From Gaiellaceae bacterium (lineage in GTDB: Bacteria; Actinomycetota; Thermoleophilia; Gaiellales; Gaiellaceae), in assembly GCA_026002995.1 (NCBI GenBank), contig BPGK01000001.1, positions 1,922,001-1,986,000 on the forward strand: a stretch of 64,000 nucleotides of DNA, in the 5' to 3' direction. The position numbers and the translations under genes are program-made. Position 1 is the first letter of the stretch. Each line of letters starts with the position of its first letter. Shown here piece after piece: positions 20,871 through 25,886 of this stretch. The notes under the pieces are model-generated. The model worked only from the letters and a program-made list of their open reading frames with translations, was not told where the DNA came from and ran no database searches.

Positions 20871-21434
20871 ATGCCGTGGAGCTGGATCGCGCTCGGAGCC
20901 TTCGTGCTCCTCGTCCTGCTCGCCGTACTCGGGTACAACCGGCTCGTCCGGCTGCGGAACGAGGTCGACACGGGGTGGGCGAACATCGACGTCCAGCTCC
21001 AGCGGCGGGGCGACCTCATCCCGAACCTCGTCGAGGCAGTCCGCGGGTACGCGGCGCACGAGCGCTCCGTCTTCGAGGAGATCACACGGGCGCGCGCCGC
21101 GCTCCGCGAAGCCGCCACTCCCGGGCGAGCAGCGGAGGCGAACGACGTGCTCTCGGCCGCCCTCGGACGACTGTTCGCGGTCGCCGAGGCGTACCCCGAG
21201 CTGCGGGCGTCCGAGAACTTCCTGCGGCTCCAGGACGACCTCACCGACACCGAGGACAAGATCGCCGCCGCGCGTCGCTACTACAACGCGACGGTCCTGC
21301 GCTTCAACACGGCTATCCAGAGCCTCCCCTGGGCGCTCGTCGCCCGTGCGCTCGGTTTCCGTCCGCGCGAGTTCTTCTCCGCGGAGGGCGATACCGAGGC
21401 CCCGCAGGTCGCGTTCCCGGCGACCCGCCCATGA
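20871..21434 (+). CDS. lemA: LemA family membrane protein
   Basis: The 187-residue protein has one N-terminal membrane helix (WIALGAFVLLVLLAVLGY, residues 4-21). The LemA hallmark follows: YNRLVRLRNEVDTGWANIDVQLQRRGDLIPNLVEAVRGY, then VFEEITRARAAL, AYPELRASENFLRLQDDL and YYNATVLRFNTAIQSLPW. LemA proteins are long coiled helices attached to the membrane, of unclear role, often beside M48 peptidases. That is the case here: the HtpX-like gene overlaps its end by 4 bases (ATGA), so the two are certainly co-expressed. Confidence 0.93.
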   Translation: MPWSWIALGAFVLLVLLAVLGYNRLVRLRNEVDTGWANIDVQLQRRGDLIPNLVEAVRGYAAHERSVFEEITRARAALREAATPGRAAEANDVLSAALGRLFAVAEAYPELRASENFLRLQDDLTDTEDKIAAARRYYNATVLRFNTAIQSLPWALVARALGFRPREFFSAEGDTEAPQVAFPATRP

Positions 21435-22387
21435 CGCTCCAGGAGCAGATCCGCGCGAACCGGCTGCGGAGCGCGATCGTCGTCATCGGCTTCGTGCTCC
21501 TCCTGCTCGTCCTCGCCGGGCTCGTGGGCGTCGTGCTCGACGTCTCACTCGGCGTCGCCGCGCTCGTCGTCGCCTCGGTGTACGCGCTCGTGGCGATCGT
21601 CCGCGCGCGGAGCATGGTCGCCCGGATGACGGGCGCCCACGAGGCGAGCGACGAGGAGATCCGCCCCCTGCGGCGCTTGGTGGAGAACGTGTCGATCGCG
21701 GCCGGGCTCCCGGTAACACCGGACGTTCGGATCGTGGACGACCCGGCGCCGAACGCCTTCGCCGCCGGGCTTCGCCCCGAGACGAGCTACGTGGGCGTGA
21801 CGACGGGACTCCTGGAGACGATGCCCAAGCGCGAGCTCGAAGCCGTCATCGCACACGAGGTTGCCCACATCCGCCAGCGGGACACGTACCTGATGACGAT
21901 GGCCGTCGTCTTCGCAGGCGTCATCGCGCTCATCGCCGACATCGGCTTCCGGGCCATCGCCTACGGAGGACGCTCCCGAAAGGGCGGCGCGCTCGTCCTC
22001 GTCGCAGCCGTCGTCGGCTTCGTCTTGGCGCCGTACGCGGCGCTCCTCCTCCGCATGAGCCTCTCCCGCCGACGCGAGTTCCTCGCCGACGCGGGCGCGG
22101 CCGAGATCCTGAACGACCCGGAGGCGATGGCGCTCGCGCTGCGCCGGCTCGAGCTCGATCCGACGACGATCCGCTACGCGGACGCCTCGACCGCCCACCT
22201 CTGGGTCGAGAGCCCGACGGATCGCGTCGACTCCGACCGGCCCGGCATCTCGGCGCTCACCCGCTGGTTCGACACGCACCCGCCGCTCCCCGCGCGGATC
22301 GCGGCCCTGGAGGAGGCGGGCGGGTTCCGCCTCCCGGATCCGCTTCCCCGGGATGAGCCGTTCGCCGTCACGCTCCGTCGCCGGTAG
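21431..22387 (+). CDS. htpX: M48 family membrane metalloprotease (HtpX-like)
   Basis: The 318-residue protease has two N-terminal membrane segments (AIVVIGFVLLLLVLAGLVGVV and the next stretch SLGVAALVVASVYALVAIV). The zinc motif HEVAH is in EAVIAHEVAHIRQRDTYLM near residue 140. Two more hydrophobic segments lie near 150-215. The third zinc ligand is the Glu in SRRREFLADAGAAE near 218. HtpX-type enzymes cleave damaged membrane proteins on the cytoplasmic side. It overlaps lemA by 4 bases. Length and topology fit the family, although the FtsH-linked E. coli HtpX is slightly shorter. The C-terminal part (RWFDTHPPLPARIAAL) is typical. Confidence 0.9.
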   Translation: MTLQEQIRANRLRSAIVVIGFVLLLLVLAGLVGVVLDVSLGVAALVVASVYALVAIVRARSMVARMTGAHEASDEEIRPLRRLVENVSIAAGLPVTPDVRIVDDPAPNAFAAGLRPETSYVGVTTGLLETMPKRELEAVIAHEVAHIRQRDTYLMTMAVVFAGVIALIADIGFRAIAYGGRSRKGGALVLVAAVVGFVLAPYAALLLRMSLSRRREFLADAGAAEILNDPEAMALALRRLELDPTTIRYADASTAHLWVESPTDRVDSDRPGISALTRWFDTHPPLPARIAALEEAGGFRLPDPLPRDEPFAVTLRRR

Positions 22388-22444
22388 CCCGACCTCCCGA
22401 ACAGGGGTTCAGGGGATCGCAGATGCGGCCGAAGAGGGTCGATA

Positions 22445-25255
22445 ATGGGCGTTGTCGTGAAGAGGCTCCGCATCGGCCGCCGCCGGGCACAGGTCGCGAC
22501 GAGCTCTCCGCTCGAGCTCGCGCTGGCGCCCGCGCTCGTCGACGGGAGCTGGCGGATCCCCGACCGCTTCAACGTGACGAGGGACTTCGTCGAGGTGCTC
22601 GGGCGCGACCCGAAGCGCCCGGCGCTCATGATCCTCGGGCTCGACGGGATCATCGAGCCGCGCACCTTCCGGCAGCTCTCGGAGGGCGCCGCCCGCTGGG
22701 CTCACATCCTGCGCTCCAAGGGGATCGAGCCGGGAGATCGAGTCCTCGTGCTCTCGCGCCTGAACGAGGATTGGATCGACATCGCGCTCGGCTGCATCAA
22801 GGTGGGAGCGATCTTCGCGCCCGCTCCTCCCACGCTCTCGCCGCACGCGCTCGAGTCGCGCGTCGCCCTGACCGACGCGGCGCTCGTCGTCGCCGGCGAG
22901 GAGTCGGAAGACGCCATCGCACGCATGTCGTTCACTCCCGAGGTCCACCACGTGCGCAGCGGACGGATGCGGCGCGCGTCGGACGTGCCCGACGACGAGC
23001 CGACCGCTGACACGTCCGCGCGAGACGTTGCGTTCCTTGCCTGGACCTGCGGCACCGAGGGCGACCCGAAGCCCGTCGCGCACACGCACGGGTCGCTCTT
23101 CGCCGCCCGTGCGACCACGGAGCGGTGGCTCGAGCCCGAGCGCGGCGCCCTCGTCTGGTGCGCGACAGGGCCGGGCTCCGCGCTCACGCTCCCGACCATC
23201 GTCGGGGCCTGGGCGCACGGCGCCGAGGTCGTTCTCCACGAGGGGGACTTTCACCCCGACGAGCGGCTCGACCTCGTCCGCCGCATCGGCCCGACCGTGC
23301 TCTGCCAGTCTCCCACCGAGTACCGTGCGCTCGCCACGCTCCGCCAGCTCGCGCGCGCTCGCCCTCCGCGGCTCCACCGCCTGCTCGCGACCGGCGACTA
23401 CCTCGAGCCCGAGGTCGTCGAGACATTCCGCGAGCAGTGGGGGCTCGAGCTCGAGAGCGCGTACGGGCAGGCGGAGACCGGCATCGTCTCCGTGAGCCGC
23501 CGTGCCGAGGAGCACGAGCGCGAGTCGGGCGAGATCGGCCAGGCGCTCCCCGGTCACCACCTCGCCGTCGTCGACGAGCACGGCGCCGAGCTGCCGCCTG
23601 GAGTCGAAGGCCTCCTCGCGATCCGAGGGAGGCCGCCCACGCTCTTCGCCGGCTACTGGGACTCGCCCGAAGAGACGAAGCGGGTGTTCCGCGGCGACTG
23701 GTACCTGACGGGCGACGTCGCCGTCGCGATCCGCCCCGGCGTCTTCCGGTTCCTCGCGCGGTCGGGCGAGCTGATCACGACGCGCGGGCGCACGTTCGGC
23801 CCGTACGAGGTCGAGCGCGCGCTCGCCGAGCACCCGGCGGTCGCCTCCTGCGCGGTCGTCGGCGTTCGCGACCTCGAGCGAGGCGGACAGTTCGTGCGCG
23901 CGTTCGTCGTCCTCGAGGACGGCAACGAGGGCTCCGAGCAGCTCGAGGCGGAGCTCCGGCAGTTCGTGGGCGAGTCGCTCCCCGAGCAGCAGGTGCCGCG
24001 AGAGATCGAGTTCGTCGACGGCCTGCCGCGGTCGCCGAGCGGCGCCGTCCGCCGCGTGGAGCTCCGCGAGCGTCCGCTCTCGGGCAGACCTCTCTGGGAG
24101 GCCCCTCCGACGACCGAGCCGGATCCCGAGCCGCCCGCGACAGCCGAGCCTCCGGCCACCCATGCGCCCGTCGTCGAACCGGCGCAACCGCCGGAGGCGC
24201 GTGCCGTCCAGGTGGAGCCTCCCGCGCCGCCTCCCCCGGCGGAGGAGGTCGTCGCGCCGACAGCCGGGGAGGCTACACCATCGCCTGCGGAGCACCCGGC
24301 GCCGAGCCCCGAGCCCCTCGACGAGCCGATGCACGCCTCGGTCGTCGAAGAGGTGGTCGAGGACGTGGTCGAGGAGGTGGGCGAGCACCTCCTCGCGACA
24401 CCTCTGCCCGAGGAGCCCGCCGCGGCGCTCACGGTCGACCCGACCGAAGCCTGGAGCGAGCCTGCGCCGGAGCCCGCTTCCGACCCGGAGCACGTCCCCG
24501 AGCCGCCGGTCGCGGCGGAGCGGCCGGCGAGCGGGAGCGCCGACCACGAGCCCTTGTCGACCGACGAGCCGATCGCGCTCGTCGAGCCCGAGCCGCCCGC
24601 GTTCGTCGAGCCCGAGCCGCCCGCACCTGCGCCGGCTGTCGAGCCGGAGCCGGAGTCCCCGCCGACCAATGAGGCCGGGGCCCCCGAGGCGAGCGTCGAG
24701 AGAACTCGCGTCGGTGCCGTGACTCCGACTCCACTCCGCGGGTCGGAGCCGCTTCCGGACTACATCGCAGCCTCGGCCGACGAGTACGCGACGAGGACGC
24801 CGCCGCTCGAGCCCGCCCCTCCTCCGCAGGCAGAGCCCCCGGACACGGAGCCGCTCCCCGAGTACATCGTCGATCCGAGCCGCCGCCTCGAGGTCGTGCC
24901 CGAGCCGCCGGCGGGTCGGGCGGCGCCGAGCGCCGAGCCGCCTACCCCGGACCCGCTCCGGGATCACCCGCTCGCGGGACTCGCGCGCCCCCCGGTGTCG
25001 ATCCCGATCCCGAGCGACGACGAGCCGCGGCCGGAGCGCCGTCGATCGTGGCGACGCGCCCGTGCGACGCCGCCCTCGGCGACACCTCCGAAGCGCGGCC
25101 GCTCGGAGGGCGAGCCGGGCGACGAAGGGCTCGAGACCGGGTGGATGCACCGGCTGTCGACGCGCCTGCACGCCTACGGCATGTCCGAGACCTCCAGCGA
25201 GCGCCGACAGGCCGAAGAACCCGCCCCCGAACAGGAAGACGAGACGCCCAGGTAG
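22445..25255 (+). CDS. AMP-binding-enzyme-like protein with altered catalytic motifs and a long Pro/Glu-rich tail
   Basis: Residues about 30-545 follow the acyl-CoA synthetase/adenylation fold: RWAHILRSKGIEPGDRVLVL, the A3-like AWTCGTEGDPKPVAHTH, SAYGQAETG and WYLTGDVA. However, several key positions differ. A3 reads TCGTEGDPKP where TSGTTGxPKG is usual. The hinge reads ARSGELITTRGRTFGPYEVE. The catalytic lysine of the final motif is Ala (PRSPSGAVRRVELR). Adenylation is therefore doubtful. Residues about 550-936 are a low-complexity tail rich in Pro, Glu and Ala, then a basic stretch. The tail suggests a scaffold or regulated protein. A GATAAT box overlaps the ATG, so GTG at 22457 is an alternative start. 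Confidence 0.7.
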   Translation: MGVVVKRLRIGRRRAQVATSSPLELALAPALVDGSWRIPDRFNVTRDFVEVLGRDPKRPALMILGLDGIIEPRTFRQLSEGAARWAHILRSKGIEPGDRVLVLSRLNEDWIDIALGCIKVGAIFAPAPPTLSPHALESRVALTDAALVVAGEESEDAIARMSFTPEVHHVRSGRMRRASDVPDDEPTADTSARDVAFLAWTCGTEGDPKPVAHTHGSLFAARATTERWLEPERGALVWCATGPGSALTLPTIVGAWAHGAEVVLHEGDFHPDERLDLVRRIGPTVLCQSPTEYRALATLRQLARARPPRLHRLLATGDYLEPEVVETFREQWGLELESAYGQAETGIVSVSRRAEEHERESGEIGQALPGHHLAVVDEHGAELPPGVEGLLAIRGRPPTLFAGYWDSPEETKRVFRGDWYLTGDVAVAIRPGVFRFLARSGELITTRGRTFGPYEVERALAEHPAVASCAVVGVRDLERGGQFVRAFVVLEDGNEGSEQLEAELRQFVGESLPEQQVPREIEFVDGLPRSPSGAVRRVELRERPLSGRPLWEAPPTTEPDPEPPATAEPPATHAPVVEPAQPPEARAVQVEPPAPPPPAEEVVAPTAGEATPSPAEHPAPSPEPLDEPMHASVVEEVVEDVVEEVGEHLLATPLPEEPAAALTVDPTEAWSEPAPEPASDPEHVPEPPVAAERPASGSADHEPLSTDEPIALVEPEPPAFVEPEPPAPAPAVEPEPESPPTNEAGAPEASVERTRVGAVTPTPLRGSEPLPDYIAASADEYATRTPPLEPAPPPQAEPPDTEPLPEYIVDPSRRLEVVPEPPAGRAAPSAEPPTPDPLRDHPLAGLARPPVSIPIPSDDEPRPERRRSWRRARATPPSATPPKRGRSEGEPGDEGLETGWMHRLSTRLHAYGMSETSSERRQAEEPAPEQEDETPR

Positions 25256-25297: not shown

Positions 25298-25507
25298 ATG
25301 GACCCGGAGACCGTGAGCCTGCTCCGCTGGCTGCGCCGTCAGCTCCGGCAGCCGACGCCCGCGCGCGAGCGTCTCGAGGCGGCGGTCCTGTACGACGACT
25401 CGGAGGAGGTCCGTCGCCTCGTCGCCCTCGCTCCGTTCTCCGACGCGCAGCGTCATCACGTGGAGGAGCTCCTCGACGCCTGGGAGGCTCGGCATGGCCG
25501 CCGCTGA
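25298..25507 (+). CDS. Small hypothetical protein
   Basis: The 69-residue product is charged and helical (SLLRWLRRQLRQ, REVRRLVALAP-like SEEVRRLVALAPFSDAQ, HHVEELLDAWEARH) with no recognised family. TACGGT at 25284-25289 lies 8 bases before the ATG. The end overlaps the SnoaL-like gene by 14 bases, so the two are coupled. Its codon usage resembles its neighbours, which supports real coding. No function can be proposed. Confidence 0.6.
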   Translation: MDPETVSLLRWLRRQLRQPTPARERLEAAVLYDDSEEVRRLVALAPFSDAQRHHVEELLDAWEARHGRR

Positions 25508-25886
25508 GAATGCCGAGATCGTCCGCCGGATCTTCGCCGCGTTCGCGCGCAGGGAGGGATTCGCGCTCCGTGGCCTCTTCGCCGAGGACGCGACGTGGGT
25601 CGTCCCGGGGCGGGGAGCGATGGCGGGCACCTACCGCGGCCGCGACGAGATCTTCCGCTTCCTCGGCCGCCTCCCCAAGGAGACAGACGGAACGTACGCC
25701 TCGGAGCTCCTCGACGTGCTCGCGAGCGACACGCGCGCTGCCGCCCTGTACCGAGCGCGCGGGATGCGCCACGGTCGGACGCTCGAGCTCGAGCAGGTGC
25801 TCCTGTTCCGGATCGAGGGCGGGCTCGTGCGGGACGTGCTCGCGCTCCCGAGCGATCCCGACGCGTTCGAAGCGTTCTGGGCGTAG
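25494..25886 (+). CDS. SnoaL/NTF2-like protein
   Basis: The 130-residue protein has the NTF2-like cone fold of the SnoaL group: ENAEIVRRIFAAFARREGFALRGLFAEDATWVVPGRG at the start, GTYRGRDEIFRFLGRL in the middle and LEQVLLFRIEGGLVRDVLALPSDPDAFEAFWA at the end. Such proteins bind small molecules as cyclases, isomerases or dehydratases, or bind without catalysis. Specific catalytic residues cannot be picked out. The ATG start lies inside the small upstream gene. The stop TAG at 25884 is also the start of a TAGGCT box for the next gene. Confidence 0.8.
   Translation: MAAAENAEIVRRIFAAFARREGFALRGLFAEDATWVVPGRGAMAGTYRGRDEIFRFLGRLPKETDGTYASELLDVLASDTRAAALYRARGMRHGRTLELEQVLLFRIEGGLVRDVLALPSDPDAFEAFWA

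Follow-up and report, generated by a model that had tools for sequence, protein, structure and literature searches.

The locus considered here raises the question of whether a protein with the fold of an acyl-CoA synthetase, an altered active site and a long low-complexity tail is still an enzyme, has become something else, or is the product of a gene in decay. It is encoded in a 64,000-nucleotide stretch (the window) of the genome of a Gaiellaceae bacterium (contig BPGK01000001.1, positions 1,922,001 to 1,986,000). This genome (G000) is a single contig of 2.62 Mb, and ten further members of the genus were searched for an orthologue. A preliminary description of the window had proposed a pseudo-enzyme rather than a decaying gene, and our comparisons support this: the tail is present in all ten genus proteins, the phosphate-handling sites are degraded across the genus, and the head has a dN/dS of about 0.10.

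The open reading frame on the + strand (22445-25255) runs over 936 codons with zero internal stops, as had been reported. Codon-position GC is 0.76/0.51/0.93 in the head and 0.82/0.61/0.86 in the tail; given that the neighbouring LemA and HtpX genes have similar values, the + strand is the coding strand through both parts. An antisense frame of 920 codons (22409-25171, - strand) spans nearly the whole gene and is, judged by its codon-position GC, a shadow ORF of GC-rich DNA. Translation more likely starts at GTG 22457 (932 aa) than at ATG 22445, because the ATG is overlapped by a GATAAT element shared by most orthologues, and a GTG or TTG stands at the later position in those inspected. A conserved GGTCGATAATGG lies about 10 nt before the GTG/TTG start, at 22441-22446 and at the orthologous sites, and TT(C/T)AG(C/T) is often present about 18 nt further upstream. 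The GATAAT element and this upstream hexamer are likely the promoter of a nearly leaderless mRNA, which suggests that the gene is transcribed from its own promoter, separately from lemA-htpX.

The head, approximately residues 36-543, is an ACSM/MbcS-like acyl-CoA synthetase of the ANL superfamily, with AMP-binding followed by AMP-binding_C, in that order and both above the curated Pfam cut-offs (Table 1). The top match among solved structures, by sequence, is the medium-chain acyl-CoA synthetase ACSM2A (PDB 2vze, 3c5e; E 1.5e-66). The top NCBIfam models are MbcS (NF047394, E 1.3e-95) and acetate-CoA ligase, all far under their cut-offs, and for the MbcS equivalog 321 bits were reached against a curated 850. 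Pfam profiles and PDB sequence matches together identify the fold as ANL. The likeness to ACSM2A and MbcS consists of the identical ANL domain set along the entire head; unlike them, the window protein lacks the A10 Lys, the A4 aromatic residue, the A5 Thr and the hinge Asp, and has an altered ATP loop and an additional tail of 392 residues. By these sequence comparisons, the protein is descended from an ordinary ACSM/MbcS-type acyl-CoA synthetase.

Table 1. Features of the gene, its product and its neighbours, in window positions
Feature	Position	Strand	Remarks
LemA family gene	20871..21434	+	conserved neighbour
M48 (HtpX-like) membrane peptidase gene	21428..22387	+	conserved immediate upstream neighbour
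GATAAT, -10-like element	22441..22446	+	10 nt ahead of GTG; conserved in 8/10 orthologues
Whole gene from likely GTG start	22457..25255	+	reported ORF opens at ATG 22445
ANL N-terminal domain (Pfam AMP-binding), residues 54-405	22604..23659	+	E 1.8e-58
A3 ATP loop TCGTEGDPKP, residues 201-210	23045..23074	+	differs from TSGTTGxPKG; variable within genus
Ser245 replacing A4 aromatic	23177..23179	+	Trp in 14/14 outgroups; Ser/Thr in 10/10 genus members
A5 YGQAE	23462..23476	+	Gln342, Glu344 kept 10/10; Thr343 -> Ala/Val 9/10
A7 YLTGD, ribose-binding Asp424	23702..23716	+	Asp424 kept 10/10
A8/hinge ARSGELITTRGRTFGPYEVE	23756..23815	+	Arg439 kept 10/10; Asp441 lost 10/10; Ile451 -> Phe 10/10
ANL C-terminal lid (Pfam AMP-binding_C), residues 455-533	23807..24043	+	E 6.7e-21
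A10 PSGAVRR, catalytic Lys position = Ala534	24035..24055	+	
Pro/Glu/Ala acidic tail, 392 residues	24077..25252	+	predicted disordered, pLDDT ~30
LPDYI, first copy of repeated LP[DE][YFH][VI]	24752..24766	+	
LPEYI, second copy of repeated LP[DE][YFH][VI]	24854..24868	+	
Basic stretch RRRSWRRARATPPSATPPKRGR	25037..25102	+	
Conserved C-terminal PGDE...WMHRLSTRLHAY	25115..25177	+	predicted helix, residues 895-910
SnoaL-like gene, downstream neighbour	25494..25886	+	conserved in several orthologues

Orthologues are present, in synteny, in nine of the ten other species of the genus; the genome without one is 63% complete. The gene order MBL-fold, LemA, M48 peptidase and window gene is conserved where contigs allow, and the question of whether the tail is conserved can be answered in the affirmative, since every genus protein has one, of about 360-555 residues. 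In the copy of one species (G001:C109) the reading frame shifts inside the tail and the end motif lies in another frame, from either an assembly error or a frameshift; this tail was translated in two frames for the statistics.

A sister genus was represented by five members, of which four have tails (159-443 residues) and the fifth lies on a contig that stops before the tail region. Three of them, G118, G116 and G052, are the nearest relatives outside the genus and have, like it, a long low-complexity tail with a terminal hydrophobic-x-RLxxY, whereas their catalytic motifs, unlike those of the genus, are essentially intact (the ATP-loop Lys of G052 is Arg). Their tails are of an Ala/Glu/Arg helical type in G052 and G118, as also in G117, and of a Pro/Glu type in G116. 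In G117 an in-frame loss has removed the whole C-terminal lid of the ANL fold, about 100 residues, and the protein retains a coiled-coil-like tail and a terminal RLxAY motif; this is the strongest single sign that selection keeps the tail end and not the chemistry. Homologues are common across the class, and the 13 that were checked, most of them chosen because of long open frames, stop 1-14 residues past the head, with no tail and with the A10 Lys intact. The maximum-likelihood tree recovers the genus (100/100) and the genus plus its sister (99/98), with the tail-less G037 and G030 next. Thus placed, the tail was probably gained once, in the ancestor common to both genera, before the catalytic residues were lost.

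The loss that first drew attention, that of the A10 Lys, is real in the window protein, where Ala534 (in PSGAVRR, residues 531-537) takes its place. The Ala itself is peculiar to this species: the other nine genus proteins have Lys (seven), Arg (one) or Thr (one). On the tree of these sequences, the Lys is lost independently on three branches (G000, G007 and G001), on top of a site change that is genus-wide. What the genus conserves is not Ala534 itself but a changed phosphate site and a terminal helix on a tether.

The ATP loop had also been described as altered, and the motif [ST]SG[ST]TGxPKG is complete in none of the ten genus members. In 4-chlorobenzoate:CoA ligase the first Thr, the first Gly and the Pro of this loop are the costliest positions to mutate (PMC8388817). 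Given that these are mostly kept in the genus (T201 in 8/10, G203 in 10/10 and P208 in 9/10), weak ATP use by the genus proteins is possible. In acetyl-CoA synthetase, the Trp equivalent to the A4 aromatic contacts the alpha-phosphate, and the Thr of YGQTE is a phosphate ligand (PMC8383264); the former is Ser245 in the window protein. The statement that YGQAETG is kept holds for Gln342 and Glu344 and fails for this Thr, which is Ala343. YLTGD (residues 420-424) is retained as stated, with its Asp in all ten proteins; the A7 Asp and the A8 Arg bind the ribose hydroxyls in known enzymes (PMC3438747, PMC8388817). The hinge is altered, as stated: the window protein has Gly441, and neither Asp nor Lys occupies the A8 hinge site in any of the ten. 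On the thioester-forming face of A8, Tyr449 is lost in all ten and Arg450 kept in four.

Certain replacements have themselves become fixed, or nearly so, in the genus (Phe for Ile451 and Val for Tyr517 in 10/10, Asp for Glu318 in 9/10), and this points to remodelling, not to mere decay. Of the head columns, 89 are conserved in 13 or more of the 14 outgroup sequences; several catalytic ones among them are lost in the genus, and most of those that it keeps look structural or ribose-side. Over the ten genus members, the ancestral residue is kept in 59 of 120 cells at phosphate-contacting or catalytic positions versus 59 of 60 at ribose-side positions, a comparison that is indicative only, as the positions were picked from the literature, the sequences share descent and the Fisher P of 6e-13 overstates independence. 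In a FadD-type paralogue, the lysine motif and the ATP-loop, A5, A7 and A8 motifs are intact in every one of the ten genomes that yielded it.

This FadD-type ligase served as the control for selection. A second MbcS-like ligase with intact motifs (G000:C1:2332158-2333690) was rejected for that role, as no counterpart appeared in the other ten genus members at E 1e-120; G000 may have acquired it. The head has dN/dS values (NG86) of 0.10 in the pair G006/G007 and 0.095 in G005/G009, similar to those of the intact control ligase (0.14 and 0.10), and this strong purifying selection argues that the gene is not decaying. The corresponding values for the tail are 0.33 and 0.21. Over longer times the head evolves faster than LemA, HtpX and SnoaL, given that the window protein and that of G007 are 60% identical in the head and these neighbours 76-81%.

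A tail of about 390 residues, rich in Pro, Glu and Ala and turning from acidic to basic, had been noted from the window, and the details agree: it spans residues 545-936, consists of Pro (23%), Glu (16%) and Ala (14%), has a net charge of -51 and is basic at about 865-886. Tail identity is 0.45-0.66 where head identity is 0.60-0.88. Pfam finds the two head domains in the whole protein and none in the tail, and the tail alone has no match among NCBIfam models and PDB sequences. AlphaFold gives the tail a pLDDT of about 30 and places a low-confidence helix at 895-910, in a model built from a shallow six-sequence alignment (mean pLDDT 49.9, head only moderate). The motif LP[DE][YFH][VI] occurs in 26 copies in the ten genus tails versus 0.03 in shuffles. 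At the end, the pattern hydrophobic-x-R-L-x-x-Y is present in 14 of 14 tails from both genera, where shuffles give an expected 0.001; the usual form of the end in the genus is PGDE...WMxGLSxRLSAYS, and most orthologues also have a basic cluster right ahead of it. The 34-residue tail end occurs once per genome, and a search of its own genome and of the genus gave no further copy. A conserved terminal motif thus lies past a fast-evolving, predicted-disordered linker, as in a tethered adaptor. Bacterial SSB and FtsZ likewise have a globular domain, a fast-evolving disordered linker and a conserved terminal docking peptide; the resemblance is one of working principle, as neither the head nor the motif of the window protein shows any sequence relation to them.

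Could the protein still be an unusual acyl-CoA synthetase? The changes in the ATP loop, A4, A5 and the hinge would then reflect a new substrate and slower chemistry, Ala534 would be tolerated or compensated, and the tail would localise the enzyme. The invariant D424, R439 and E344, the largely retained T201, G203 and P208, the purifying selection on the head, and the near-intact catalytic motifs of most sister-genus versions, which are tailed as well, are all in keeping with this. The A10 Lys of seven genus members also counts against a full loss of activity, and residual activity in the Lys-bearing orthologues is possible. However, the A4 aromatic, the A5 Thr and the hinge Asp are gone in nine or all ten of the proteins, the Lys has been lost on three separate branches, and G006 and G007, although 87% identical, differ at four ATP-loop positions and by the swap of the A10 Lys for Arg. 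We consider continued synthetase activity unlikely, if a serious competitor. An enzyme of one half-reaction seems more doubtful still: adenylation would be lost, and acyl-AMP (or acyl-CoA and AMP) would still be processed in the thioester-forming conformation, from an adenylate made elsewhere. The A10 Lys functions in the adenylation step (PMC8388817), and its loss together with the kept ribose-side residues would fit such an enzyme, whereas the changes at the thioester face (Tyr449 in all ten, Arg450 in six) and at the hinge Asp speak against it. That the gene is decaying or an assembly artefact, with a tail read through from non-coding DNA, is scarcely credible and is refuted by nine species whose orthologues are intact and share the end motif and the neighbours, by the dN/dS of head (0.10) and tail (0.21-0.33) and by a codon-position GC typical of genes, even if GC-rich DNA does yield long spurious ORFs such as the 920-aa antisense one and the G001 copy changes frame within its tail.

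The explanation that we favour, and hold to be probable without being secure, is an adenylation-deficient ANL pseudo-enzyme in which a disordered linker connects the head to a docking helix at the C-terminus; we infer its ligand, partner and location. Catalytic residues have been lost and the fold is under purifying selection, which is the pattern of a pseudo-enzyme. Pseudokinases, for example, have likewise lost active-site residues and kept their fold, which differs from that of ANL proteins (PMC9988210). Its present role is probably that of a sensor, adaptor or scaffold and no longer that of an enzyme, with binding and scaffold roles that we infer. Among the open-access papers that we searched, none described an acyl-CoA-synthetase or ANL pseudo-enzyme with such a tail.

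Judged by the sequences, the common ancestor of the two genera most likely gained a long C-terminal tail that ended in hydrophobic-x-R-L-x-x-Y. Within the genus, the positions known from other enzymes for ATP-phosphate contact, the hinge and adenylation changed or were freed from constraint, while Gln342, Glu344, Asp424 and Arg439 on the ribose side stayed fixed and the remaining fold stayed under purifying selection. On the reading favoured here, the head would no longer adenylate, or only very weakly, and may have turned to holding a protein partner or an adenosine-type ligand, perhaps in a sensing role. The tail, disordered, acidic and rich in proline, could be a flexible tether, its terminal basic patch and amphipathic helix could dock onto a partner protein or membrane, and the repeated LPDYV motifs may be secondary docking sites.

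From the perspective of enzyme evolution, a change from enzyme to adaptor has apparently been caught in stages within one bacterial family. Tail-less proteins with intact motifs coexist with tailed proteins with intact motifs and with tailed proteins that have lost catalytic residues, one of them without its lid. If the tail came first and the loss of catalysis later, this route to a pseudo-enzyme can be put to a direct test, and a concrete ligand prediction follows from the loss of phosphate contacts alongside retained ribose contacts.

The gene's conserved place next to LemA and an M48 membrane peptidase is a hint, no more, of a connection with quality control of membrane proteins; the argument from an operon with lemA-htpX is weakened by the conserved upstream -10-like element, which suggests separate transcription. 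One more specific possibility, conceivable though on balance unlikely in this form, is a lineage-specific family of ANL pseudo-enzymes whose retained ribose side senses a metabolite of the adenosine type (AMP, acyl-AMP or a CoA-like compound) and whose tether of about 400 residues and C-terminal helix relay the signal to a partner, in the membrane or in protein quality control, close to LemA and the M48 peptidase. The sister-genus genome G052 differs in its neighbours (L042, 11337-12188): ClpS and DUF2017 genes follow the tailed synthetase and an aldehyde dehydrogenase lies divergently upstream, in place of LemA-HtpX. Downstream of the window gene, an ORF of 69 aa (25298-25507, + strand) lies before the SnoaL gene, overlaps its start, and possibly encodes a real small protein.
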